NCBI RefSeq assembly: GCF_000835495.1
Contig: NW_015622542.1
Location: 372,001-436,000, forward strand
Reading direction: 5' to 3'
Source of the DNA: Cladophialophora immunda
Taxonomy: Eukaryota; Ascomycota; Eurotiomycetes; Chaetothyriales; Herpotrichiellaceae
DNA length: 64,000 nt
Positions 5,363 to 55,916 of the stretch are shown here, one piece after another. Each line of letters begins with the position of its first letter. Position 1 is the stretch's first letter. The position numbers were made by a program, and so were the translations under genes. The notes below the pieces were generated by a model. It had not been told where the DNA came from, searched no databases, and was given only the letters and a program-made list of their open reading frames with translations.

Positions 5363-7902
5363 ATGGCAGCCACTGTGCTTGGTCTCCTCGCGCTGCTGGC
5401 CGTGCCGGCGGTGGCAGATTTGTTCCCCGATTGTGTCCATGGACCTCTTGCAAACAATACTGTGTGTGATACGTCTGCATCGGTGGCAGACAGAGCCAGG
5501 GCGCTCATTGGAGCCATGACTCTCGATGAGAAATTCAATTTGACAGGCAACACTTCCCCAGGAGTGCCACGTCTGGGAATCCACAGCTATCAATGGTGGC
5601 GTGAGTTTACCCAAGGCCTCCGAGTTTTGCTTGTCATACTTATCAGATATCAGAGGAAGCATTGCACGGCGTGGCCAGCTCTCCAGGCGTGACCTTCAAC
5701 CAAAATGGAGAGTGGTCTTATGCGACGTCCTTCCCACAACCAATCCTGATGTCGGCAGCGTTTGATGATGCGTTGATTCACGCTGTCGCGACTGTTGTCA
5801 GCACCGAAGCACGCGCATTCAACAATGCCAACAGGAGTGGACTGGACTACTGGACACCCAATATCAACCCGTACAAGTGAGTAAGATTGTCGTTCAAGTC
5901 CATAAGCCCGAAGTGTCCCGAGCTCTGTTCTAACCTATGATGTGGTAGAGATCCACGCTGGGGCCGCGGGCAAGAGACTCCGGGAGAAGATCCTTTCCAT
6001 CTCAAGTCTTATGTTGCTTCCCTGATCAATGGTCTCCAAGGTGGCCATGACCCAGCGATCAAGAAAGTGGTTGCCACTTGCAAGCATTTCGTCGCGTATG
6101 ACCTGGAGAACTGGGAGACCACAGATCGATACAACTTCGACGCCCAAGTTACCACTCAGGATCTTGCCGAGTACTACATGCAGCCGTTCCAAACCTGTGC
6201 GAGAGACGCCAATGTCGGGTGAGTGAGATATAGCATGATCTTTATTGGTCGACTCACTTACAACCATAAGCTCGATCATGTGCTCCTACAACGCCTTGAA
6301 TGGCGTGCCCACCTGCGCCGACCCGTACATCCTGCAAACTATTTTGAGAGAACATTGGAATTGGACAGGCGAGGGCCAGTATGTGACCTCTGATTGCGAC
6401 GCAATTCAAAATATCTACATGCCGCACGACTATACAACGTCTCGAGAGCAAGCCGTCGCCGACGCCTTGAAAGCAGGGACTGATCTCAACTGCGTAGGTC
6501 CCTCTGTCCAGATACATGCCGCTGCGTAATGCTGACCTTGTCCAAGGGTACATACTATCAGACACACCTTCCTGGAGCGTATGAAAGGGGGCTGTTCAAT
6601 GAAAGCGTGCTCGACCAGACACTGACCCGTCTTTACTCTTCTCTGATACGCCTGGGATATTTTGATCCGGCATCTGCCACTCCGTATCGCTCCCTCGGCT
6701 GGCAGAATGTGTCGACCCCAGCCTCCGAAGCCCTTGCATTGAAGGCGGCCGAGGAAGGCATTGTGCTCCTCAAGAATGACGGCACGCTGCCGTTGTCTTT
6801 GCCATCAGACAGGAACACCACCATCGCTCTGTTTGGTGAATGGGCAAATGTGACGACGCAGATGCAAGGCAACTACTATGGCCAGGCGCGGTTCCTTCAT
6901 GGGCCACTCTACGCCTTGCAGCAATTGCCTCACGTCAACATCAAATACACCAGCAGCCAGAGCAGCATCAACTTCCCTACCACAGATAACTGGGATGACC
7001 TGATCTCGGCTGCGGAAGAGGGCGACATCGTGATCGTTGCAGACGGCATCAACGATGACGACGAAAGCGAGAGCTTGGACCGGTACGACATCAGCTGGGC
7101 CCCAGGAAAGATCGATCTGATCAACCAGGTCACGGCGATGGGCAAGCCGGTCATCTTGCTTCAGATGGGTGATCAGCTCGACGACACTCCCTTCTTGAAC
7201 AACCCCAACATCTCGGCCATCGTATGGGCCGGCTATCCAGGCATGGCTGGAGGCGATGCTCTTGTCAACATCATTACGGGCAAGGTGGCGCCGGCAGGAA
7301 GACTCCCTGTCACGCAGTACCCTGCCAACTACGTTGAACAGGTCGCCATGACAGACATGAACCTGAGGCCCAACGCCTCGTCCGGAAACCCTGGCAGAAC
7401 ATACAAATGGTACGACAATGCTGTTCTCCCGTTCGGATATGGCTTGCACTACACCAACTTTAGTCTCACGGCGGTCCAGCCCAAGCAGTCAAGCTTCAAC
7501 ATCTCCAAGCTGGTGTCTAGCTGCGACCGCTCGACGTACAAGTACCTCGACCTGTGCCCCTTCAGCACGTTCGAGGTCAATGTCACCAACACGGGCAGAG
7601 TGGCGTCCGACTTTGTAACGTTAGGGTTTATCAGTGGCCAGAATGGGCCTGCCCCCCATCCCATCAAGGAACTGGTTGCGTACCAAAGACTGTTCAACAT
7701 CACCCGTGGGTCGTCGAAGACGGCGGCGCTGGATTTGACGCTGGGCAGTCTCGCGCGGCGAGATGAGAATGGAAATCAAATCCTATACCCTGGAGACTAT
7801 GGATTGCTGTTGGATGTGCCGACGCAGGCGATGGTGAACTTCACCCTGACAGGGAGTCCAGTGACACTGGATCAGTGGCCGCAGAGACCCGCCAGTGGGT
7901 GA
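5363..7902 (+). CDS. GH3 exo-1,4-beta-xylosidase, secreted
   Basis: Secreted glycoside hydrolase family 3 enzyme, expected to release xylose from xylo-oligosaccharides. Five exons (5363-5600, 5654-5876, 5949-6218, 6271-6493, 6547-7902) give 769 aa, a normal length for fungal beta-xylosidases. An N-terminal signal peptide is clear (hydrophobic run ending VPAVADLF). The family pattern is present: WWQEALHGVA near residue 80, WGRGQETPGEDP, CKHFVAYDLEN, MCSYNALNGVPTCA, and the nucleophile region VTSDCDAIQNIY with the probable nucleophile Asp at about 285. The C-terminal half has the GH3 C and fibronectin-III-like domains, with WAGYPGMAGGDA and PFGYGLHYTNF. Several NxS/T glycosylation sites fit secretion. 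SDCDA rather than SDW favours xylosidase over beta-glucosidase. It probably works with the divergent transporter. Confidence 0.95.
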
Positions 7903-34170: not shown

Positions 34171-35161
34171 TCTCGGAAGCTATTCTCCTCGCGGTTCTGG
34201 TCGAGAGCTGGGTGCCGTGAAGTCAATGACTTTCGTGGTGTTACCAAGACTGAGAAATGTCCAGCGACTTTGTTCGAGCTCTGAAACGGCCCCAGCCTGC
34301 GACAAGCCGTTGGATCCGGCGAATGCAGAAGGACAGAGGCTTGCCCAGTGATATGGGGTCCTTTTGAAAGAAATTGAAATAGAAAGAGATCCGCTGACTG
34401 AGCAACTTGCAATTCTCAGATCAATACTTTACTGGCAATAGGGGAGCAACGGAAGCAGGTCATAATGCTGGAAGGGTGATTGGGCGACGTCTGCCCTACC
34501 AGACTCCCCTGCAATGGGGGCCTTCAGGCAGCCCGAAGCACGGACCACCGCCTATGCAACCCACGAGAATCCCTGAGTGGTGCCTGGAAGCTGCCCTTGG
34601 CCCCTTGGACCCTTGGGCCCCGCCAGAGCGGGATCGGTTAGGGGGCCAACAGCCCAGAACAGGATGGTTTACGAGGCCTGGCAGTACAGGTCCAAGTATT
34701 GTCCCTTGCAGATTGCAAGCAAAGATCCCGATCTCCATTATCAGATGATCTCGAGAATGCTTTACTTGGAGATGGTCGTGACTATGGCTGCTCGACTTGA
34801 ATCCAAACAACCACCCACGGCACTGATGATCACGTCGCCGACGGTGTCACCACCGCGTCAAACTGCTAAGTATCCTGTTGGTTAGTGCTTATACAGATAC
34901 AACATGCCTCATGCTAGGATTTGGATCCAAGATTTATGATACAACGCCGCGGAATAAACCCCAGTAGTGACGACAAGCCCGAGACATATTTGTCTGGGCA
35001 GGTGAGCACAGATACCTCAGGTATTGCTATCTGCATCCCTTGGACCGAGGCCTGACAGAATCACCCCGCCATCCACTCACTCACTGCAGTTACCCCTCCT
35101 CCCCACATAAAAATTCGACAATCATATAGCCGTACAGGCCAAAAATGCCTCAAAATACACT
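34171..35161. other. Intergenic, P450 promoter and tRNA 5' flank
   Basis: About 1 kb with no supportable coding gene. The left part is presumably the P450 promoter. AT-rich sequence near 35105-35135 directly precedes the tRNA-Leu gene. Confidence 0.4.
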
Positions 35162-35170
35162 GGTGAGGTG

Positions 35171-35233
35171 GTATGTGAAAAATCTATCACCCGTCTCATA
35201 GTTGGAACTTGGGAGCTAACAATGCTCTCTCAG
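35171..35233 (+). other. Spliceosomal-type intron 1 inside tRNA-Leu (position 9/10)
   Basis: 63 bp. Donor GTATGT, branch-point GCTAAC at 35215-35220, pyrimidine tract and acceptor CTCTCTCAG, with branch A 14 nt before the acceptor. Length and signals match the mRNA introns of this window; for example GT2 introns 1 and 3 also use GCTAAC. It separates the acceptor strand from the D-arm. Confidence 0.8.
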
Positions 35234-35253
35234 GCCGAGTGGTTATGGCGCAA

Positions 35254-35308
35254 GTAAGCAACTATGAGTCTCTCACCATCACCTCAACTCTGCTAACCCT
35301 GCCAAAAG
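35254..35308 (+). other. Spliceosomal-type intron 2 inside tRNA-Leu (position 29/30)
   Basis: 55 bp. Donor GTAAGC, branch TGCTAAC (35291-35297), acceptor AAAAG at 35304-35308, with branch A 12 nt before the acceptor. It falls inside the anticodon stem. Only this acceptor restores the CAAGT/ACTTG stem with T33 and anticodon CAG. The downstream TTTCAG at 35310-35315 would leave no valid loop. Confidence 0.75.
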
Positions 35309-35316
35309 GTTTCAGG

Positions 35317-35355
35317 TACACCTGGAGCTCACGCTTCGAATGGTACATATCGGAG
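35317..35355 (+). other. Canonical tRNA intron after position 37
   Basis: 39 nt in the standard eukaryotic position, one base 3' of the anticodon. Its early ACCTG can pair with CAGGT of the anticodon loop, as in typical endonuclease-processed precursors. Confidence 0.75.
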
Positions 35356-35401
35356 TACTTGTGGGTTAAATCCCTCGTGGGTTCGAGTCCCACCCTCATC
35401 A

Positions 35402-35936
35402 ACCGCATGTTACTTTTTTTTGGTTTTTCTTTTCACGGGACCGGTAGGAGAGGAGGATGGAAGGCCGGGATGGTGGCGGATGAGGGGAGATATCGTCCAG
35501 GCGGAAATGGTGGACTCGCATTGGAGCACAGAGAGCTTTCACCCTTCACCTTTGCAGGCACTGGGCGAGATCTTGTTTTCTAAGGTGTAACCATTTTCCT
35601 TGGAGGGCAATTGGCAGCCCGTGGTCTGCGAAATTATATGATTATATTATATGCTTTCTTCCACACCAGATGCGACTGTACCCTTTTTCACTGCCCTGGA
35701 CTTCGGCGTTTGCACCTTTGGTCTGCAGGCAGTGGCGCGGAAGAGACAGCGGCGAAGCCTTAGCCTCGCCGTAAACAATCCCTTCCCAGATTCGGGATGG
35801 TCCTCCCAGAAGTCAGTTACATCTCCATCCGTCTCGTATGGCATGGGATGACCCACGCCACTCTTACATGCGCTTGTGCACACCTCCCAATGGGTATAAT
35901 GAGGAGCAACAGATACCCCCTAACCGCAGAACGTCT
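35402..35936. other. Intergenic, tRNA 3' flank
   Basis: 535 bp holding the Pol III terminator and the 3' flank of the next minus-strand gene. Nothing else is recognised. Confidence 0.4.
35414..35421 (+). terminator. RNA polymerase III oligo-T terminator
   Basis: A run of eight T starts 13 nt after the tRNA discriminator base, with two further T runs just downstream. This is the expected Pol III stop and argues that the interrupted tRNA gene is a working Pol III unit. Confidence 0.8.
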
Positions 35937-37607
35937 TCAGCGTATAGGCATCCGTGTTCGTTGCTGGTTTTCATCCTCACTCTTTATAGGCTCTTTTATA
36001 TGTAGAGCTTCCTCGAACCATAGCTGGCCGTCTGGCTCCAAATGCTCATCGTACACGAATCGCCGTAGGATGCTTCTGGCTTGCTCCCAAGCGGTGACGC
36101 TCATTTCCACGGCGTGTTTAGCCAGCGTCGTTGTGAACCACGGGTCCTCGGATGGCTCGACTTTGATGCCGACATGGGTTCCCCTCGTCTGGCGTTTCTG
36201 GCGTTGTTCGTACTGTGCACCAGCATACAACATCCATAGGTATGCTTCTTGATAATGGTCACATTCATCTGGACTCAGCATCTCCATGGCCGCCACCATG
36301 TCCTGCGCCAATCGAGGCATGATGACGTGAGAAGCTTCTCGTATGTCGGCACCATCCTCTATGATCGCCTCATGCACACGTTTGCGGCTTTCATAAATTA
36401 GCGTGAGAATCATGCATGCCTGCGTCAGTCGATGGCCCTCCGAATTGAAGAGAAATTTCCCTTCCGTTATGTCCACGTACAAATTGATCAGAACTCCCAG
36501 GTCGTGAAACGTCTTGGTCGCGATCCAGGCAAATATCATATCGGCCTTGAGCCTCTCTTGAGCTGTTCCGAACGGCAACGGCGTTTCGGCGACCCACAAG
36601 CAATATCTCAATCTGACCATTGCCTCCCGATGCTCAGGAATTTCCACACAGGGATGAGCATTGTGGATATAAATGGGAGGGATCGGTAGATAAGGACCAG
36701 TAAGTGCCCATAGCCTTGCGTGCGCCTTCGCAGTCCAGTCACCGAAAGGCATAACCGTCCTTTCTAGCTTCTTACACGCTAATTCGGTAGCATCGAACAT
36801 CATGACCAATGTGTGTTGAACACGCTCCATATCGTCAGTCAGAGGATCGGGGAGATGGAGAAGGATGTCCGCATGAGCTTTGGCTGCCATCGTGTCTCCC
36901 GCCATGCACTCCGTCTCGAACAGACAGCGAATATGTAACCTGAGCGCAGCCAACGACTCGGGTTTTGTTTGGGCATGTCCGGCGAGCTGTTCACGAAGCA
37001 ATTTGAGGCTTTTGGCTCGCATTTTGAGCCTCGCTGTCGAAAGCTGTTGCGTGTTTTGGGTTGAATTAAGCCGTACTATGTTGGGAATATGGCCGCACAA
37101 CCATGCAAGAGCAGCACCCTCATTCATGTCTCCAAACCCCTTGAGACTGAGACGAAAGCTAGACCCTCCGATGACTTTGTTAGAATTCTCATAGTTGACT
37201 ACCTTGGGTCCTCCTACGGTAAGTCGTCGGAAAAAGGGCGGACTGAAGATATTAGGAAGCATGACATCTCTTGTGTATGTGATGATACGATGGACTTCCG
37301 GCGTGATTTTGATGGGGCATGCATTGAACGGGTCGGATGATCCATGCAGGAGGAGGATGATTTCGCGATACTGTGGTTGGGCTCGATGGTTGGGTTGTTG
37401 CCCGTCATGAACTCGTGGTCCGCTATACTCATGCCGCTCTTCTTTTTGCAGCAGCTGCTGTTGCAATTTTGCCCATTTCCTTTTTTGATGGGAAATTCTG
37501 GCCGCGTGTGCCTTTATCTCTGCTCCCTCGAGTTCTTGTTCCCGAATGGGTCTGTCTCGTTTCGATGGAGGCAGAAATTTGATGTTGGAATGGAGAAAGA
37601 GCACCAT
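35937..37607 (-). CDS. Fungal transcription-factor-like protein without zinc cluster
   Basis: 556 aa, one exon, ATG at 37605-37607. It resembles a large Pezizomycotina family annotated as fungal-specific transcription factor. After a basic, charged N-terminus (SKRDRPIREQ, HQKRKWAKLQQQ) comes the family signature GSSDPFNACPIKITPEVHRII with YTRDVMLPNIF, then a long all-helical regulatory-type domain. No Zn2Cys6, bZIP leucine repeat or other DNA-binding motif is visible. It could act through a partner or not be a DNA-binding factor at all. A TATATA on the minus strand near 37754-37749 lies about 140 bp upstream. No pathway can be assigned. Confidence 0.8.
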   Translation of the reverse strand: MVLFLHSNIKFLPPSKRDRPIREQELEGAEIKAHAARISHQKRKWAKLQQQLLQKEERHEYSGPRVHDGQQPNHRAQPQYREIILLLHGSSDPFNACPIKITPEVHRIITYTRDVMLPNIFSPPFFRRLTVGGPKVVNYENSNKVIGGSSFRLSLKGFGDMNEGAALAWLCGHIPNIVRLNSTQNTQQLSTARLKMRAKSLKLLREQLAGHAQTKPESLAALRLHIRCLFETECMAGDTMAAKAHADILLHLPDPLTDDMERVQHTLVMMFDATELACKKLERTVMPFGDWTAKAHARLWALTGPYLPIPPIYIHNAHPCVEIPEHREAMVRLRYCLWVAETPLPFGTAQERLKADMIFAWIATKTFHDLGVLINLYVDITEGKFLFNSEGHRLTQACMILTLIYESRKRVHEAIIEDGADIREASHVIMPRLAQDMVAAMEMLSPDECDHYQEAYLWMLYAGAQYEQRQKRQTRGTHVGIKVEPSEDPWFTTTLAKHAVEMSVTAWEQARSILRRFVYDEHLEPDGQLWFEEALHIKEPIKSEDENQQRTRMPIR

Positions 37608-42135: not shown

Positions 42136-45100
42136 ATGATGGCTTCCTCACACCATCACGCCTCCCACGCCCGGAACATTCCACGCGGCATATCCCGTCC
42201 TTTGGCCCGGCCTCCCGCTCCAGAGCAGTCTGTGGAACCTCGTTTTGATGTTCGAGAAGTCCGCGAGCCCTCTTTGTTCGTCCAAGACCGCAGAGGGGAT
42301 CGGCAAAACTTGACATATGGGGCACTTGATCGACATTCTATTCCGCGCTATCGACCGGCCGGTCATGGTGGCTTACTCGGGTTGGGTCCGAACTATCGAA
42401 TAGTTTCACGATCAGAGTCTCACCTCAATGTGGAAAATGTCGAGACTGATTCCACACGAAGGTCCCGTCGAGAGTCTTTGCTTGAGGACCTTCCCGATGA
42501 CGATCAAGCCGCGGAAAATGTTCAATCCGGAGTCAGCAACGAATCGGATCTGCGCGAGGACTTTCTGAGCTTCGACTATGTGCATCCAAGGAAGAGGAGG
42601 CGGGTATTGGCGGGATCAATGGATGCAACTGTGGAAGACGACGACGAGAGTGATGAGTCAGACCCAGACAGTCAAGCGCTTGCACCGCCCAAGGACGCCT
42701 TTGACGAGTTCAAACGAAACCCCGTTCATCAGCGCCATATTGAACTCTTGAGAGCTACGGAAACCCGACCCGAGGACGTGTCGGCATGGCTTGCGTTGAT
42801 AGAGTATCAACCCGTGCTCTTCGGCGAGGAGCGCAGTTCCCGCAGCTCCGCTTCTCCTTCGTCAAGGACTGTTGTGGATCTCAAAATCTCGCTGTATGAA
42901 CAAGCACTGTCGCGCGTGAAAGGCCGAGAAGGCCGAAATGCTTTGATCCTGCGTCTCATGCAAGTGGGAAAGGTGGTTTGGGATGCCGATAAACAGGCCT
43001 CAAGATGGCGGACCTTCCTCGACGAGGACGCCTCATTCGACCTGTGGCGGCTTTATCTGAACTTCGTCCAAACCAACCACGTCAAATTCAGCTTTGAAAG
43101 TTGTTTGGGGATTTACAAGCAGTGGCTTCAAAAGGCCGAAATTGCGCCACCAGACCGCACGAGAGATACTAGCTGCATATACATCCTTTTGCGCTTGACC
43201 TTATTCCTGTGGCAATCTGGGTTTACGGAGCGCGCAGTCGGGATTTGGCAAGCACTGCTCGAATTCAACTGCTTCCGTCCCCGAACCATCCCTCCCACTG
43301 AGCTCATACCATCCTTCCAGGAATTCTGGGCGAGTGAGGTTGCCCGAATTGGCGAGGAAGGCTCGGCAGGTTGGCGATCGAATGCAAACAATGAAATCGA
43401 GGCAAGAAGCGACAAGCCCTTCCAAGTGCAGCATCTGGATTTCGAGGCCTGGGCTGCCGCTGAAAATGATCTTGAAATGACCGCTGGATTGCCTGCAAGA
43501 GCTCTAGATGAAGTCAGCCAAGATGACCCTTACCGTGTTCTTCTCTTCTCGGATATTGAAGACTTCCTCTTCTCCCCGACTACAGAAGAGGGCTCGTGGT
43601 TACTGCAGGATGCGTTTTTGTTGTTCGCGGGACTCTCACCGCTATCATCACTCCCTGGGTCCAAGGTCTGGGAGCAAGATCCTTTCATTCATAGCCAGTC
43701 GCCCTCCTCCGGCATCTCTTTGGTACCCGGTGGTCTTGGAGAGAATAATTGTGGCTTGCAGATGCGTTTTCTACAAGTCTTTCTAGCGGCTCGGCAATTG
43801 TACTCTGGGAAACCTGGCGTCCTACTTTCTTCCACAGCAAGACTCATCGGTTCTTCTCTTAGCTTTGTTCGCCGAGTCATACATCAGCTTGCTGGACTGG
43901 CTGCTGACGAAGAACCAAGCGAACTGCATATGGAATACGCGATTGCATTGGAAGCTGGAGTAGATCTGAAATCCGCCAGAAAACAGACAAGGGCATATCT
44001 TAAGCGCAAGGCTGACAGCCTCAAACTCTATAATACCTATGCACTGCTCGAATGCCAATTGGACAACTTCGAAGGTGCCGAAAGAGTTTGGTCAACCGCG
44101 CTGTCAATGCGATATTCGCTTGGACATGAAGTGCAAGTCGATTCATTCCTTCTGTGGCGTGACTGGGCATACTTTTACATGTGCCGAAGGCAATTCCAAC
44201 ACGCTAGGGCTCTCCTAAGTCATATGACAGAAGAGGAGGTGGACTTGGTTCGGCTGCGAAAAGAGATCGAAACCACTAACGAACCATCTGCTACTATGCA
44301 GATCAAGGTCGAACAATACATCAAAATGCAGATCGAGCAAGGCCGCACCCACAGACGAGCAGACCAGTTACCGGCGCTGATCGACGTCCTGGCATTTCAT
44401 AGGTACCTCAACGCTGATATGTCCCTTGAAATAGCCCTACAAACATATCATGCCTCTCTCGGATCTCTCACGGGACTGTCGACAATGTCTTCTGCAGTGC
44501 TCGAAGCTGTTCATGAGCAGCGAGCTCGTTTCATTTACTCTCATTCCGTGACGTTTGGAAAGAGTTTCAGACCGAGCGAACTCGTCCCCATTCTGAAAGA
44601 CTCGACAGAAAAGTTTCCTAACAATCTCAACCTCTTACTGCTCCATCATCATTTCCTTCAGAAAGCCGGGCTTTTCGACCGGTTGCGGCAGGTCGACTCC
44701 AAAGCAGATGAACGTCGAGACGTGCAAATCAAACAAAGTATCGTTCCTTGCGTGTTTGACTTGCTGCTAGAGCTCAACCGACCGTCGTACAGCGGGAGCA
44801 CAGATCACAGCATTCGCTCGGCTTTCGCACGGGTGACTCAGCTGGGTTCTCCTGGGCATGACAATCCTGAAATATGGAAAACATATGTTCTTTGGGAAAC
44901 GGCATTGATTCAGCTCCGTGACGATGCGGGTGTAGAAGGCAAGGGAACCACAAGGCGTGAAGCGAGAGCTCGCCGATCTGCAGCAAGCGCTTCTCAATCC
45001 TTTTATGCGTCACTTAGGGCATGCCCATGGTCGAAAGAACTATGCATGCTGGGGTTTACACGGCCAATGCTGAGAAACGCAATTGGCGATTCCAAACTCA

Positions 45101-45171
45101 GGCAGGTGTATCAAACCATGCTAGATAGAGGTATGCGGGTGCGTCTTGACATATCAGATACGTTGCCGTAG
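42136..45171 (+). CDS. nrde2: NRDE-2 family protein (nuclear RNAi/RNA-processing factor)
   Basis: 1011 aa, single exon, start at 42136 with a second ATG immediately after. The family core begins at FDEFKRNPVHQRHIELL followed by AWLALIEYQPVLFG, the conserved opening of the NRDE-2 domain. Helical HAT/TPR-like repeats continue to the end (LWRLYLNFVQTNH, WQSGFTERAVGIWQALLEF, FEGAERVWSTAL). The N-terminal 180 residues are disordered with acidic patches and RKRRR. In fission yeast the relative Nrl1 works with the Mtl1 helicase in spliceosome-linked RNA surveillance; in worms NRDE-2 acts in nuclear RNAi. Its stop lies 283 bp before the UTP10 ATG on the same strand. Confidence 0.9.
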   Translation: MMASSHHHASHARNIPRGISRPLARPPAPEQSVEPRFDVREVREPSLFVQDRRGDRQNLTYGALDRHSIPRYRPAGHGGLLGLGPNYRIVSRSESHLNVENVETDSTRRSRRESLLEDLPDDDQAAENVQSGVSNESDLREDFLSFDYVHPRKRRRVLAGSMDATVEDDDESDESDPDSQALAPPKDAFDEFKRNPVHQRHIELLRATETRPEDVSAWLALIEYQPVLFGEERSSRSSASPSSRTVVDLKISLYEQALSRVKGREGRNALILRLMQVGKVVWDADKQASRWRTFLDEDASFDLWRLYLNFVQTNHVKFSFESCLGIYKQWLQKAEIAPPDRTRDTSCIYILLRLTLFLWQSGFTERAVGIWQALLEFNCFRPRTIPPTELIPSFQEFWASEVARIGEEGSAGWRSNANNEIEARSDKPFQVQHLDFEAWAAAENDLEMTAGLPARALDEVSQDDPYRVLLFSDIEDFLFSPTTEEGSWLLQDAFLLFAGLSPLSSLPGSKVWEQDPFIHSQSPSSGISLVPGGLGENNCGLQMRFLQVFLAARQLYSGKPGVLLSSTARLIGSSLSFVRRVIHQLAGLAADEEPSELHMEYAIALEAGVDLKSARKQTRAYLKRKADSLKLYNTYALLECQLDNFEGAERVWSTALSMRYSLGHEVQVDSFLLWRDWAYFYMCRRQFQHARALLSHMTEEEVDLVRLRKEIETTNEPSATMQIKVEQYIKMQIEQGRTHRRADQLPALIDVLAFHRYLNADMSLEIALQTYHASLGSLTGLSTMSSAVLEAVHEQRARFIYSHSVTFGKSFRPSELVPILKDSTEKFPNNLNLLLLHHHFLQKAGLFDRLRQVDSKADERRDVQIKQSIVPCVFDLLLELNRPSYSGSTDHSIRSAFARVTQLGSPGHDNPEIWKTYVLWETALIQLRDDAGVEGKGTTRREARARRSAASASQSFYASLRACPWSKELCMLGFTRPMLRNAIGDSKLRQVYQTMLDRGMRVRLDISDTLP

Positions 45172-51856: not shown

Positions 51857-54800
51857 TCAGATGTAAAACATGTGTTTTGCGACGTCGGGGTGGAGCCGGA
51901 GGCAGTACTTGAACGCGGGCAGTTCGCTGTCATCGAACGGCGTGACTGGATTGTCGTCGTCTCTCGGAGGGTTGTAGAATCTTCGGACAAAGCACCTCGC
52001 GCGGTCGGCGACCAGGTCGGCGTAGTAGACGGGCGTGCATGGTCCGACGGAAGTGCGCGAGCGGCCAAAGAGATAGCACAAGTGATATGTCTGGTCCAAA
52101 AACAGTGTCAGTGTCAGGGTCGGCAGAGAGAGAGAGAGAGAGAGAGAGGAAGCCGCTCGATCGATCGGAGAGAGGGGAGGGTCCAACTTACCATCTCGCC
52201 GATATCTTTGATGTCGTAGTTGTGCGGGTTTTGCAGAACGACGTAATGCACCGGGATGGCCGTGCCCTGAATGGCCTTCTGGCCCACAAGGAAGAAGTCG
52301 TTGCCCTCTCCGTAGGTGATCCGCTCCGTGACCACGCAGCCCGGGAGGGGATTGTTGTTGACGCCGCCACTTTTATTCGACTGATACAGCGTGAGACTCC
52401 GGTCTGGGGAGCGTGCATTGGGATCCGGGAAGAGACGAGTGTGGTGTCGTTTGATGGCGCAGATAAGGGTGACTTTGGGCAGAAGCTCGACCGGCAGACC
52501 CTTTTGCTGGAAAAGCTTGCCCAGAGCTGCTCCGATCTTGCCGTACTCGTAGCCCTTGCACATGGCGAACTGTGACTCTGAAACTCCATCGCGGTAGACG
52601 ATGATCTGCTCCGGAACGCCGGTGCCCTTTCGCCCTGCTGAATCTTTTCCATGGTTCCGCTCGTAATAGTCCAGAAGTCGCTCGTACACGGGGATGTCGA
52701 GATCCAATATCTTCTCGTTGGCCTCTTTCTCTTCATAATCTTTCGTAGAACACGGATTCGCCAGCAGACTCGCCGGCCATTGGGAGAATTCTGCATTGAC
52801 ACTGCCAACCACGGCTGCAACGCTGGGACAGTGCTTTCTTGGTCCGCCTCCATGTGCCACGTCAATGCCGATGATCATTGTCTTGGGCGACAGAATCTTC
52901 GGGTTGCAATACAAGGCTTGGTTGACGGTGGTCGTATCCACTTTCAAGTTGATTTTCATGCACAGATTGGCCAGAAAGTCGTGGTTGATGCCACCGTTCA
53001 AATTGCCCGGATGTAAAAGGCTTCTGGGCCAAAGCGCACCAGCTCCTCGTCTCAGCACATGACAAACGGTGAATATTCCGACAGCTTGCTCTCCGACTCG
53101 TTTGATGGCGCCGTAGAGTTCCGGATCTTCGGAAGGGAGAAGCAGGACAACGAGTTGGATCCCTTTTCCTTTGAGATTTTTGAGTAGCTTTTCGATGGCG
53201 GCGTAACGCTTCTGGAAATTCGAGACCGTCTTCCACCTTGGAAACAAGTTCTCGTCGGCATACTGCTGTTGGCTCATGTCGTTGCGGTTCAGTGGCGTCC
53301 ACTCGAAACTCTCGATGCCATATTTCCGCAACGCTTGACTCAGGTGGTTCACAAAATGGGTGCTTCCTGGTATTGGGCATTTCGGCGACTTGGTGTTCGC
53401 GGTGAGCTCGACGCAGGACCACCTCTTCCCGGAAGCTGGTTTGACAAATGCTGCGTCTCGGACATTCCATTGGCCAGCATTGATGGAGGCTCCGTTGATG
53501 AATTTGGTCTGTTTCGGGTTTCCCTGAGCTTTGTACATGAGATCAGGCCGGGCCAAAACCGTGACTGGCACTTTGGCCATGTTGGGGTCAATCTGCAGGC
53601 GAAATGCTGCCGCTCCACCTTCGCTGAGGTTGTTCGAATAAAATGTGCGCCTGCCGTCTGTGACAATCATGTTGTAGTTTTCATTTGGGTACCGAGTCGA
53701 CAACCGGGGTATCTCCCTTGGTTTAATCCGCCCAGGAAGGACTTGAAGCAGGTTTGCTGGGACCGTCATGCACCCTTTTTGTGACTCTTTGCCAATCTTG
53801 ACAACGTAGACATGGGGATTCATCTGCCAATTGTGCTTCATGGAGAAGTAGTCCCTCACTAGGCTGCCAGAATGCTGTTGGTTGATATGTTGCATCTGGC
53901 AATTATCGGCCCGTGGCTCTCGATCGATGCGCGCAAGACCTTTGATCGCGGAGAACCGATCAAGTCCTTGTTCCTGGAACGTCAGTCTTACCGGGGCTCG
54001 GCGCAAGAAATCTTGGAGATCATCCAGATTGCAGTATCCGTTGTAGATGTTCCAGGCATCAATCATATCTTGCACATTCCCATGCTGCCAAAAACAGCCT
54101 GTTTTGACGTAGATGTTGAGGTCGACGTGCCCCGAGGAGCTATAAGATCCTCGGACACTTCTCGAGAATCCTGGAATGCTGTAGAGGCCACCTTCTCTGT
54201 CCAGCACTTTGCCGGTATCTGTCGTCCAGTCTTCTGACTTTGAAGGGGGAGGTTGGGGAGCGATGCCATAGAACGTCTGCCCTTTTGTCGTGGTCATCGA
54301 GGGCGTTTTCTGATCGTTAGAAAAGCATCTTTGGTAAGGTAGATAACTAAAGATGACGTTCAGTGCATTCGTTGCATCATTGAGAGCTTCGATCGATAGC
54401 TGCGACACGGCTGTCTGTGATTGTGTAGGTCGACGATAGTGCGCAAAGAGATTGGCCAGAGAGATCAGTTTTGGCTTCTCAAAGACCACTCGGTAGCGGT
54501 CACAACCCGGGACAGGACTGGCTGAGTACTCGTCATAGAAATCGAGGTCGCGTGGTTTGGTGACGTCCTGGCCTAGTTGCTTCGCTGTGATGAAAAGCTT
54601 CAGGTAATCGGTGGCGACGGGATCTGGAAGCTTCTTTTCCGACCTGAGTTGCTCCATGAGCAGGTAAACAAGTCGTCTCTTCTTCTGTCTTGCGATCGGG
54701 CGTGTCTTCTGGTCACGAGCGTCGCCATGCTCAGGCTCAAGGGGTTGGCTCTGGTCGTCTTGTGCCTTTCGATGAATTCTACTGATTTTCAGCTCATAAG

Positions 54801-55278
54801 AATAGACTTCTCTGTAGTCCCCGAGCGTGATGGCGAAATGGTTGGCCAGCAGCTGTTTCCCTGAAATGTCGACGTTCGGTGTCCCTTGAACTTTTGGACC
54901 TCCATCTAACCGACCACCTCCTGAACCAGGGCCCGTGTGCGGTGGTCCCGAGCGGTAAGGTATCTGCGACTGGCCGCCTCTAACACCTGCCTGAGGAGCT
55001 TGCCAGTTGGTATTGGCTTGATGATGTGTCGTGAGAACACCTGGTTGAGCTGGCGCCCGGTTGACGCCTGAGCTGAGAGGGGCCACTTGCTGATTTGGTT
55101 GAAAATTAGCCACCGGTGGCACATTTGGAGGAGGATTCGACAAGGAATTGTTCGGTCGGCTGTCACCAGGACTGAACAGTGGGTTTGAACGGTACGGCAG
55201 TTCCCCGCCGCCAGCATTGTCACTGGGAGTGGAGGAGCGTTTGGCAGGATCCCGGGTTGGGTTGTATCGAGGTATCAT
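51857..55278 (-). CDS. Argonaute protein (RNA silencing slicer)
   Basis: Core RNA-silencing endonuclease, 1106 aa from two exons (55278-52192, 52090-51857). N-terminal 130 residues are Gln/Pro/Gly-rich and disordered; then N domain (about 140-300), linker, PAZ (about 380-500), L2, MID (about 640-770) and PIWI (about 770-1106). The catalytic residues look intact: Asp806 in GIDVAHGG, Asp897 in YRDGVSESQ, His1011 in GTAIPVHYVV, and a candidate glutamate finger in the KEANEKI segment near 855. The last exon has PVYYADLVADRAR and ends RLHPDVAKHMFYI, the usual buried C-terminus. It should therefore be slicing-competent. The 101-bp intron carries a CT microsatellite. Start ATG at 55278; the upstream open frame is GAGT-repeat leader. 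I cannot say whether it is QDE-2-type (quelling) or SMS-2-type. Confidence 0.95.
52125..52149 (+). repeat. AG dinucleotide repeat in Argonaute intron
   Basis: About 12 AG units, reading CT in the transcript, inside the Argonaute intron (52091-52191) and upstream of its acceptor, where it adds pyrimidine-rich sequence. Confidence 0.85.
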
Positions 55279-55916
55279 GCTGAACTGAGCGAGCGAGTGA
55301 GTAAGTGAGTGAGTGAGTGCGTGCGTGAGTGACCAAGGCTTAATCAAAAGAAAGTGAAAGTGACATTTAACACGGTGAAAAGGTCTGAGATAAAACACGT
55401 CAGTTAGACAAACCAAGGACGGTTGTTTGAGTCCAACAGCTTCAGGCTGTTTGTGGCAGTAGTTACAACACCAAATAAACTCTTAGTGAAAGCCCAAAGA
55501 GTCTGTGCAACACAATTTAACACGATTTTTGTTGGGTTTGCAAAGGCAATCCTTGTGTGTTGTTTGCGACGCGGAATGAAGCAAATGAAGAGCCCAATGT
55601 GTGAGGACGTAAACAACGAGGCCTATGAAGAATCTTGGAGCGCATGGAGGTGTACCGAAAAGCGGTCATAATGAGGTTGCTTGTTGGTAGAACGTTGAGT
55701 AGGCAAACTGCAAGCACCAAAGACCATAATGCACGAAGCGAACCAGAAGGACCAGGATGTCCATATAACAGAGGACATGCTTTGCAATCTATCTCGGTCA
55801 GTAGGAAACTGTAGAGTCTTCCGAACGAACGATGGAGAGAGATTGTCATCCTCACCAATGCTGTGGACATTTCTTGCCGGGCCACCCTCTTCCCTTCTCT
55901 TGCCCTTCTGCCTCTC
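55279..55916. other. Intergenic, Argonaute promoter/leader
   Basis: 638 bp. GAGT/GTGA tandem units at about 55286-55332 lie directly before the Argonaute ATG and probably in its 5' leader. Nothing else is recognised. Confidence 0.45.

Follow-up and report, generated by a model that had tools for sequence, protein, structure and literature searches.

The tRNA-Leu(CAG) locus

The window is a stretch of 64,000 nucleotides from Cladophialophora immunda and corresponds to C2:372001-436000; the genome measures 42.2 Mb and comprises 39 contigs. A tRNA-Leu(CAG) gene on its forward strand is interrupted by two introns of the mRNA type and by one ordinary tRNA intron. The parts of the gene and the signals around it are as follows.

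35120..35129, +, TATA-like stretch AATCATATAG, 33-42 nt before the mature 5' end; tentative Pol III promoter element, from sequence only
35162..35170, +, exon 1: tRNA positions 1-9 (acceptor 5' strand and positions 8-9)
35171..35233, +, mRNA-type intron 1, 63 nt, GTATGT...GAGCTAACAATGCTCTCTCAG, at 9/10
35216..35220, +, CTAAC, branch-site-like, in intron 1; its A lies 14 nt before the intron end
35234..35253, +, exon 2: D-arm, position 26 and the first 3 nt of the anticodon stem
35254..35308, +, mRNA-type intron 2, 55 nt, GTAAGC...TGCTAACCCTGCCAAAAG, in the anticodon stem at 29/30 (after its third base)
35293..35297, +, CTAAC, branch-site-like, in intron 2; its A lies 12 nt before the intron end
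35309..35316, +, exon 3, first part: positions 30-37, with the anticodon CAG at 35313-35315
35317..35355, +, ordinary tRNA intron, 39 nt, at 37/38
35356..35401, +, exon 3, last part: position 38, anticodon 3' strand, long variable arm, T-arm, acceptor 3' strand and A73
35377-35393, +, T-arm
35414..35421, +, run of eight T, probable Pol III terminator

The joined exons measure 122 nt, and removal of the 39-nt intron after position 37 leaves an 83-nt type-II tRNA. After splicing, the acceptor stem pairs at 7/7 positions (one G-U), the D stem at 4/4 (one G-U), the anticodon stem at 5/5 and the T stem at 5/5. The spliced molecule has T33, the anticodon CAG, A73 and a long variable arm; A73 and the long variable arm are consistent with leucine identity. 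The original prediction had set the exons and both GT-AG introns at the borders listed above, all of which are right, and its 83-nt type-II tRNA with four paired stems, T33, CAG and a discriminator A is reproduced on the spliced sequence. It had also placed the branch points 12-14 nt from the acceptors, where the two CTAAC motifs are found, and had held that the insertion sites differ from the usual tRNA endonuclease site (37/38), which agrees with the positions 9/10 and 29/30 obtained here. Its overall reading, in which a tRNA-Leu(CAG) gene has a normal tRNA intron besides two of the mRNA type, is supported, and 15 more genes are built alike. As judged by eye, a CCTGG inside the 39-nt intron could base-pair with the region of the anticodon. 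Another AG (TTTCAG) is found 7 nt past the acceptor of intron 2, and splicing there would remove the anticodon.

The unspliced locus had been described as having only a perfect T-arm, a D-arm and a Pol III terminator; with regard to a whole tRNA, neither ARAGORN run without introns nor Rfam at the gathering score finds one there or elsewhere in the unspliced window. ARAGORN also reports no tRNA on the unspliced locus when introns are allowed at the default threshold. On the spliced DNA, an ARAGORN run that permits introns yields a complete cloverleaf whose anticodon loop contains an intron of 39 nt. ARAGORN labels it Ser(CGA) because the intron is set three bases early, and placing the intron at 37/38 gives CAG. 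When intron 1 alone is removed, ARAGORN gives a tRNA-Pro(CGG) containing a 92-nt intron; implausible tRNAs are also drawn on the unspliced locus if the threshold is lowered. A shuffle test judges the Leu(CAG) model more sharply than ARAGORN: with the T-arm and the 3' end fixed, the gene finder described below solved 0/700 dinucleotide-shuffled versions of the upstream DNA.

An intact tRNA-Leu(CAG) elsewhere in the genome would bear on this reading and was looked for. A DNA search of the genome with the spliced sequence matches the 35162-35401 locus only, and no second tRNA-Leu(CAG) is present among all 84 genomic GGTTCGANTCC B boxes, a survey that a copy with another B box could escape. The gene is not necessarily essential, as Leu(TAG) might read CTG too.

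Among the protein-coding neighbours, 35937-37607 encodes a product with 80% identity to a protein of Fonsecaea erecta, and a GH3 piece (6529-7902) shares 90% identity with one of F. pedrosoi, which puts the fungus close to Fonsecaea and Cladophialophora in the Chaetothyriales. By Pfam, a gene for an NRDE-2 family protein (42136-45171, +) and an Argonaute gene (52114-55416, -) lie within about 7 kb of each other.

Split tRNA genes in the genome

An Rfam tRNA search of the genome gave 23 matches, 63 of 935 candidates having been scored. B boxes were listed by pattern, and all 84 GGTTCGANTCC sites and those of the rest that looked most like tRNAs were examined. With the T-arm kept fixed, the finder takes out up to two GT...AG stretches, or none, each 40-110 nt long and carrying a branch motif, which is defined as CTRAY anywhere in the last 32 nt of the intron. 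It requires an acceptor stem, a D-arm and an anticodon arm with T8, A14, GG and T33. Thirty-two sites were given to the finder and 28 were solved; L113, L076, L130 and L126 had no solution. The tRNA-Lys(CTT) of L076 and the tRNA-Ile(TAT) of L130 were modelled by hand and are both outside the shuffle test, and Ile(TAT) is also outside the count of straddling stem pairs given below. Rfam and ARAGORN recognise tRNAs in L002 and L126, which fail the strict finder and were counted as unsplit; those in L134 and L136 are recognised by this finder alone. L113 (C7:2067341, +) has a B box and a 5-bp T-stem yet no tRNA solution and is outside the counts, as is L143, which also has no tRNA solution.

Forty tRNA genes were recovered, of which 16 have mRNA-type introns and 24 do not; as the catalogue is neither complete nor randomly sampled, 16/40 is only a rough share of split genes. 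The 16 split genes hold 24 GT-AG introns away from the tRNA-endonuclease site. The unsplit genes comprise 20 of the 23 Rfam matches together with L095, L099, L134 and L136, and the other three Rfam matches are split genes. The four unsplit genes missed by the Rfam search encode Leu(CAA), Asp, Val(TAC) and Ala(CGC). Because the catalogue is incomplete and these four were missed, any of the split anticodons may also have an intact gene outside it. Genes for Tyr, His, Trp and Gln are absent from this incomplete catalogue altogether. To judge from these gene models, the observation is a genome-wide pattern, larger than the single locus first noted. The split genes and the sites of their mRNA-type introns are as follows.

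Leu(CAG): two introns, at 9/10 and 29/30
Leu(TAG): one intron, in the D-loop after position 15
Asp(GTC), L014: one intron, in the D 3' strand
Pro(CGG): one intron, at 8/9
Pro(AGG): two introns, in the acceptor 5' strand and the anticodon loop
Ala(AGC): one intron, at 7/8
Glu(TTC): one intron, in or just past the anticodon 3' strand
Glu(CTC): one intron, in the D-loop after position 15
Asn(GTT): two introns, in the D 3' strand and in or just past the anticodon 3' strand
Lys(CTT), L076: three introns, at 7/8, before A14 and in the acceptor 3' strand
Arg(TCT): one intron, in the variable arm
Ile(TAT), L130: one intron, in the acceptor 5' strand
Ile(AAT), L140: one intron, in the D-loop after position 15
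Val(AAC): two introns, in the D-loop one base past position 15 and at 26/27
Phe(GAA): two introns, after position 15 and within the anticodon 5' strand
Ser(GCT): two introns, in the D 3' strand and the variable arm

The tRNA-Glu genes CTC and TTC of L115 (C7:3602209-3602354 and 3603014-3603150, -) lie about 0.7 kb apart and have different intron sites. The tRNA-Lys(CTT) gene of L076 (C3:2715105-2715352, -) combines its three mRNA-type introns with a 6-nt exon.

The introns are uniform in their signals. GT-AG borders are present in 24/24, G at +5 in 23/24 and T at +6 in 20/24, and the branch motif is CTAAC in 21, CTAAT in two and CTGAC in one. All 24 have the branch A 10-15 nt before the intron end, a tight distance that was not imposed by the search rule. 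Lengths are 49-63 nt and the G+C content is 43% (n=24). The commonest site, after position 15, is used by 4/24 introns in four different tRNAs. Unused GT-AG candidates at the same loci look different: G at +5 is found in 41/160 of them as opposed to 23/24 of the used introns, and 27/160 fall within both the length and the branch-distance ranges as opposed to 24/24, although these ranges were chosen after seeing the introns. The inserts are accordingly filed, on their sequence marks, as U2-type introns, having an extended GT donor, an AG acceptor and a near branch motif. Like signals mark two introns in the window's GH3 gene (53 nt, GTAGGT..CTGAC; 72 nt, GTGAGT..CTAAC), which are too few for a reliable comparison; a third GH3 gap near 6219-6265 starts with GTGAGT and is without the CTRAY motif. 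The 27 heuristic mRNA-intron candidates are mostly noise, and only the two from GH3 were used. Group I and group II introns were rejected as a class for the inserts, because their catalytic core takes several hundred bases and 49-63 nt is too short to contain one. The inserts might also be copies of a mobile, introner-like element that spreads in tRNA genes, an account of their origin that does not compete with spliceosomal removal. Many of the introns are similar in size, and the site after position 15 is shared by four tRNAs, as such an account would have it. However, the 24 introns matched 18 places in the genome, each being one of the tRNA introns, in a search that skips very common words and does not fully exclude an abundant family. 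This origin is considered exceedingly improbable.

Chance as a source of the split gene models is countered by the shuffles and by a gap in the scores. When 14 split genes were each shuffled 700 times, 0/9,800 shuffles equalled the real score and 36 gave a solution of any score. The proposed gene model is the top solution of the finder in 14/14 split genes tested. Among 156 T-arm-like sites scanned, 36 score at least 13 (14 split and 22 unsplit genes) and none scores from 11 to 13; 18 of these 22 unsplit genes are also Rfam matches. Glu(TTC) has a weaker unspliced solution, with a score of 12.5 against 17.5 for the spliced one. ARAGORN finds a tRNA in 16/16 spliced genes, with an agreeing anticodon in 10 and a differing one in six because it shifts the tRNA intron. 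It also finds something in 9/16 of the unspliced split genes, with the right label only for Glu(CTC), and therefore ARAGORN calls alone prove little.

The split loci could be decayed tRNA pseudogenes with insertions, the cell being served by intact copies elsewhere. An unsplit copy was indeed recovered for Asp(GTC) and Ile(AAT), the only two such cases among the 16 split genes, and the catalogue is incomplete. For the other 14, including Phe, Asn and both Glu, the split gene is the sole one recovered for its anticodon, and every insert carries splice signals. Decay of the stems, which had been named as a sign against the original prediction, is not seen in the split genes of this genome. After splicing, 306/315 stem pairs are formed in the 15 split genes with a strict solution, and 142/145 pairs that straddle an mRNA-type intron are intact in the same 15 genes, counts for which stem pairing was also a finder criterion and the shuffles are the control. 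The models have flaws: the anticodon stem contains a T-T mismatch in Lys and is weak in Ile(TAT), and Ala has one acceptor mismatch. The tRNA-Ala retains G3-U70, the alanine identity pair.

The paralogues provide a further comparison. The tRNA-Asp of L014 (C1:4485463-4485602, -), when spliced, and that of L099 (C5:1943100-1944500, -), which is without an mRNA-type intron, have identical mature sequences of 72 nt, and their ordinary tRNA introns are different (15 and 21 nt). The intronless Ile(AAT) gene L006 and the split gene L140 differ at 6/74 sites. Four of the six changes affect the pairs 5:69 and 11:25, in which both sides are changed and pairing is kept, and both pairs straddle the mRNA-type intron of L140. 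Such compensatory changes across an intron, together with the intact pairs, argue against decay, and the pseudogene account is regarded as very unlikely. Scans with a pattern for the Asp donor junction gave 0 matches in viral contigs and at least 118 stretches in genome contigs, for which the listed titles are bacterial or archaeal; the pattern is too loose and is given no weight.

Transcription and removal of the introns

A T-run of at least four starts no more than 22 nt past the 3' end in 16/16 split genes, and 10/16 were found without a pattern that demands a T-run. The B box is intact in all 16, but the B box is how the genes were found. The A box is interrupted in 8/16, in Leu(CAG) by intron 1. 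Among the 14 genes with enough upstream DNA, a motif scan finds a TATA-like sequence between -31 and -50 in five (Ala, Glu(TTC), Glu(CTC), Asn and Lys) and further upstream in three, and gives none in six, Leu(CAG) among these. According to the review PMC3978253, upstream TATA boxes matter for tRNA genes in some fungi. A TTCAACAATCAC-like stretch lies about 8-25 nt before the tRNA in L061, L076 and L087 and, less exactly, in the Glu(CTC) gene of L115; it is perhaps the Pol III start region.

These signals suggest that Pol III is the likely polymerase of the split tRNA genes, despite the interrupted A boxes. The spliceosome might instead act on tRNAs that sit in Pol II transcripts such as a capped non-coding RNA, an account that overlaps with the preferred one. 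In favour of this, the spliceosome normally works with Pol II, and the A box is interrupted in half the genes (8/16). Set against this are the T-runs directly after all 16 genes, ten of them found without a T-run pattern, the TATATT-like stretch at -31 to -50 in five of the 14 genes and the intact B boxes, though the search relied on the latter. Transcription by Pol II is accordingly thought unlikely.

Very probably, the locus encodes a functional tRNA-Leu(CAG) that would be made as a Pol III pre-tRNA and cleared of its mRNA-type introns by the spliceosome before the endonuclease acts, and the same would hold for at least 15 other genes. The introns, their signals and the cloverleaf that forms once they are taken out can be read from the sequence; Pol III transcription, spliceosomal removal in the cell, the order of the steps and the gain of the introns are inferences. 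The tRNA-Leu(CAG) gene would be transcribed by Pol III, to judge from the B box in its T-arm and the T-run terminator. The spliceosome would then excise the two U2-type introns. It would have to act first, because intron 2 sits inside the anticodon stem that the endonuclease needs. The introns inside the anticodon arm of Leu(CAG), Phe, Pro(AGG) and Asn likewise suggest that the spliceosome precedes the tRNA endonuclease. The 39-nt intron at 37/38 would be removed afterwards by the tRNA-splicing endonuclease and ligase. Tiny exons, such as the 6-nt exon of tRNA-Lys, would need sequential splicing. Because the same architecture is found in at least 15 other tRNA genes, a good part of the tRNA supply would depend on the spliceosome. 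The mRNA-type introns were probably gained, given that Asp and Ile(AAT) have paralogues free of them and that tRNA genes in general lack introns of this kind. A special function is not needed to explain them; accumulation tolerated by the host spliceosome is the default.

The tRNA-splicing endonuclease might instead cut the introns out at bulge-helix-bulge sites of a non-canonical kind. Extra or displaced tRNA introns are known in some archaea and in Cyanidioschyzon (PMC4090602, PMC3978253), and intron 1 of Leu(CAG) has 4/4 central pairs, the sole such case among the 24 introns. However, pairing around the 24 junctions averages 3.75/10, compared with 3.68 at random, in a test that is weak in that 32 introns at 37/38 score 5.97 largely via the anticodon stem and only 1/32 has 4/4 central pairs. 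GT, a branch motif and AG are present in all 24 introns, and the enzyme needs none of them. Moreover, the GT-AG introns of Leu(CAG) lie at 9/10 and 29/30 and not at 37/38. The chance that the endonuclease removes these introns is therefore put at very low, and spliceosomal removal is preferred.

Related systems and implications

mRNA-type introns occur in fungal U6 snRNA genes. Those genes are alike in having a spliceosomal intron in a fungal Pol III gene and differ in that a single gene family is concerned instead of many tRNA genes. In this genome the sequence matching U6 runs uninterrupted, without an intron. The ordinary tRNA introns at 37/38 are also present in the split genes, and the order of removal links the two kinds; their site, signals and enzyme differ.

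A close parallel in ascomycetes is described in PMC8527467 for lichen rDNA, which has mRNA-type introns in a structural RNA that is not made by Pol II. The lichen introns are removed by the spliceosome, whereas removal of the tRNA introns is deduced from sequence. Yeast splices a lichen spliceosomal intron out of rRNA according to the same paper, and thus the spliceosome acts on an RNA that is not made by Pol II. The lichen host is an rRNA transcribed by Pol I, while the hosts here are tRNAs with Pol III signals and make up 16/40 of the recovered genes. Up to three mRNA-type introns serve a product of 73 nt here, unlike in the lichen rDNA. Archaeal and red-algal tRNAs are alike in having several introns or odd intron positions (PMC3978253, PMC4090602). 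Their permuted genes and introns involve a bulge-helix-bulge and the endonuclease, whereas the introns described here have GT, a branch motif and AG.

In PMC4090602, PMC3978253 and PMC13149111, tRNA introns are treated as endonuclease introns, and the last of these, a 2026 review, presents tRNA splicing as spliceosome-independent. The original prediction knew of no nuclear tRNA gene with spliceosomal introns, and no report of one was found in the open-access literature among the matches listed, as far as their available text goes. Published tRNA counts of related fungi may bear on this. A set of 30-37 tRNAs is fewer than a full eukaryotic set would need. ARAGORN counts given in the respective genome papers are 30 for F. 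erecta (PMC5640708), 37 for F. monophora (PMC4966464), 32 for F. multimorphosa (PMC5313630) and 36 for F. nubica (PMC4974309). These low Fonsecaea counts fit many tRNAs being hidden by introns, which is suggestive.

Nuclear tRNA introns are taught as the work of the tRNA endonuclease. tRNA genes with mRNA-type introns would break this rule and would show the spliceosome handling short Pol III transcripts with exons of few bases. They would also mean that spliceosomal introns invade Pol III tRNA genes, with the commonest site, after the conserved AG at 14-15, as a proto-splice site. Paralogues with and without an intron, such as the Asp pair, offer ready splicing tests, and the structure of the RNA shows how exact splicing is. 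Possible under-counting by tRNA finders in these fungi would be explained, and the low printed Fonsecaea tRNA counts would be an overlooked trace of intron-split tRNAs. It is probable that, in a whole lineage of black yeasts, several tRNAs can be supplied only with the help of the spliceosome, and that one pre-tRNA of up to four introns passes through two splicing machines in a fixed order. If this is true, Phe, Asn, Glu and Lys, for which the split genes are the only ones recovered, would be spliceosome-dependent, and translation would be coupled to mRNA splicing, tying the capacity for translation to the capacity for splicing.
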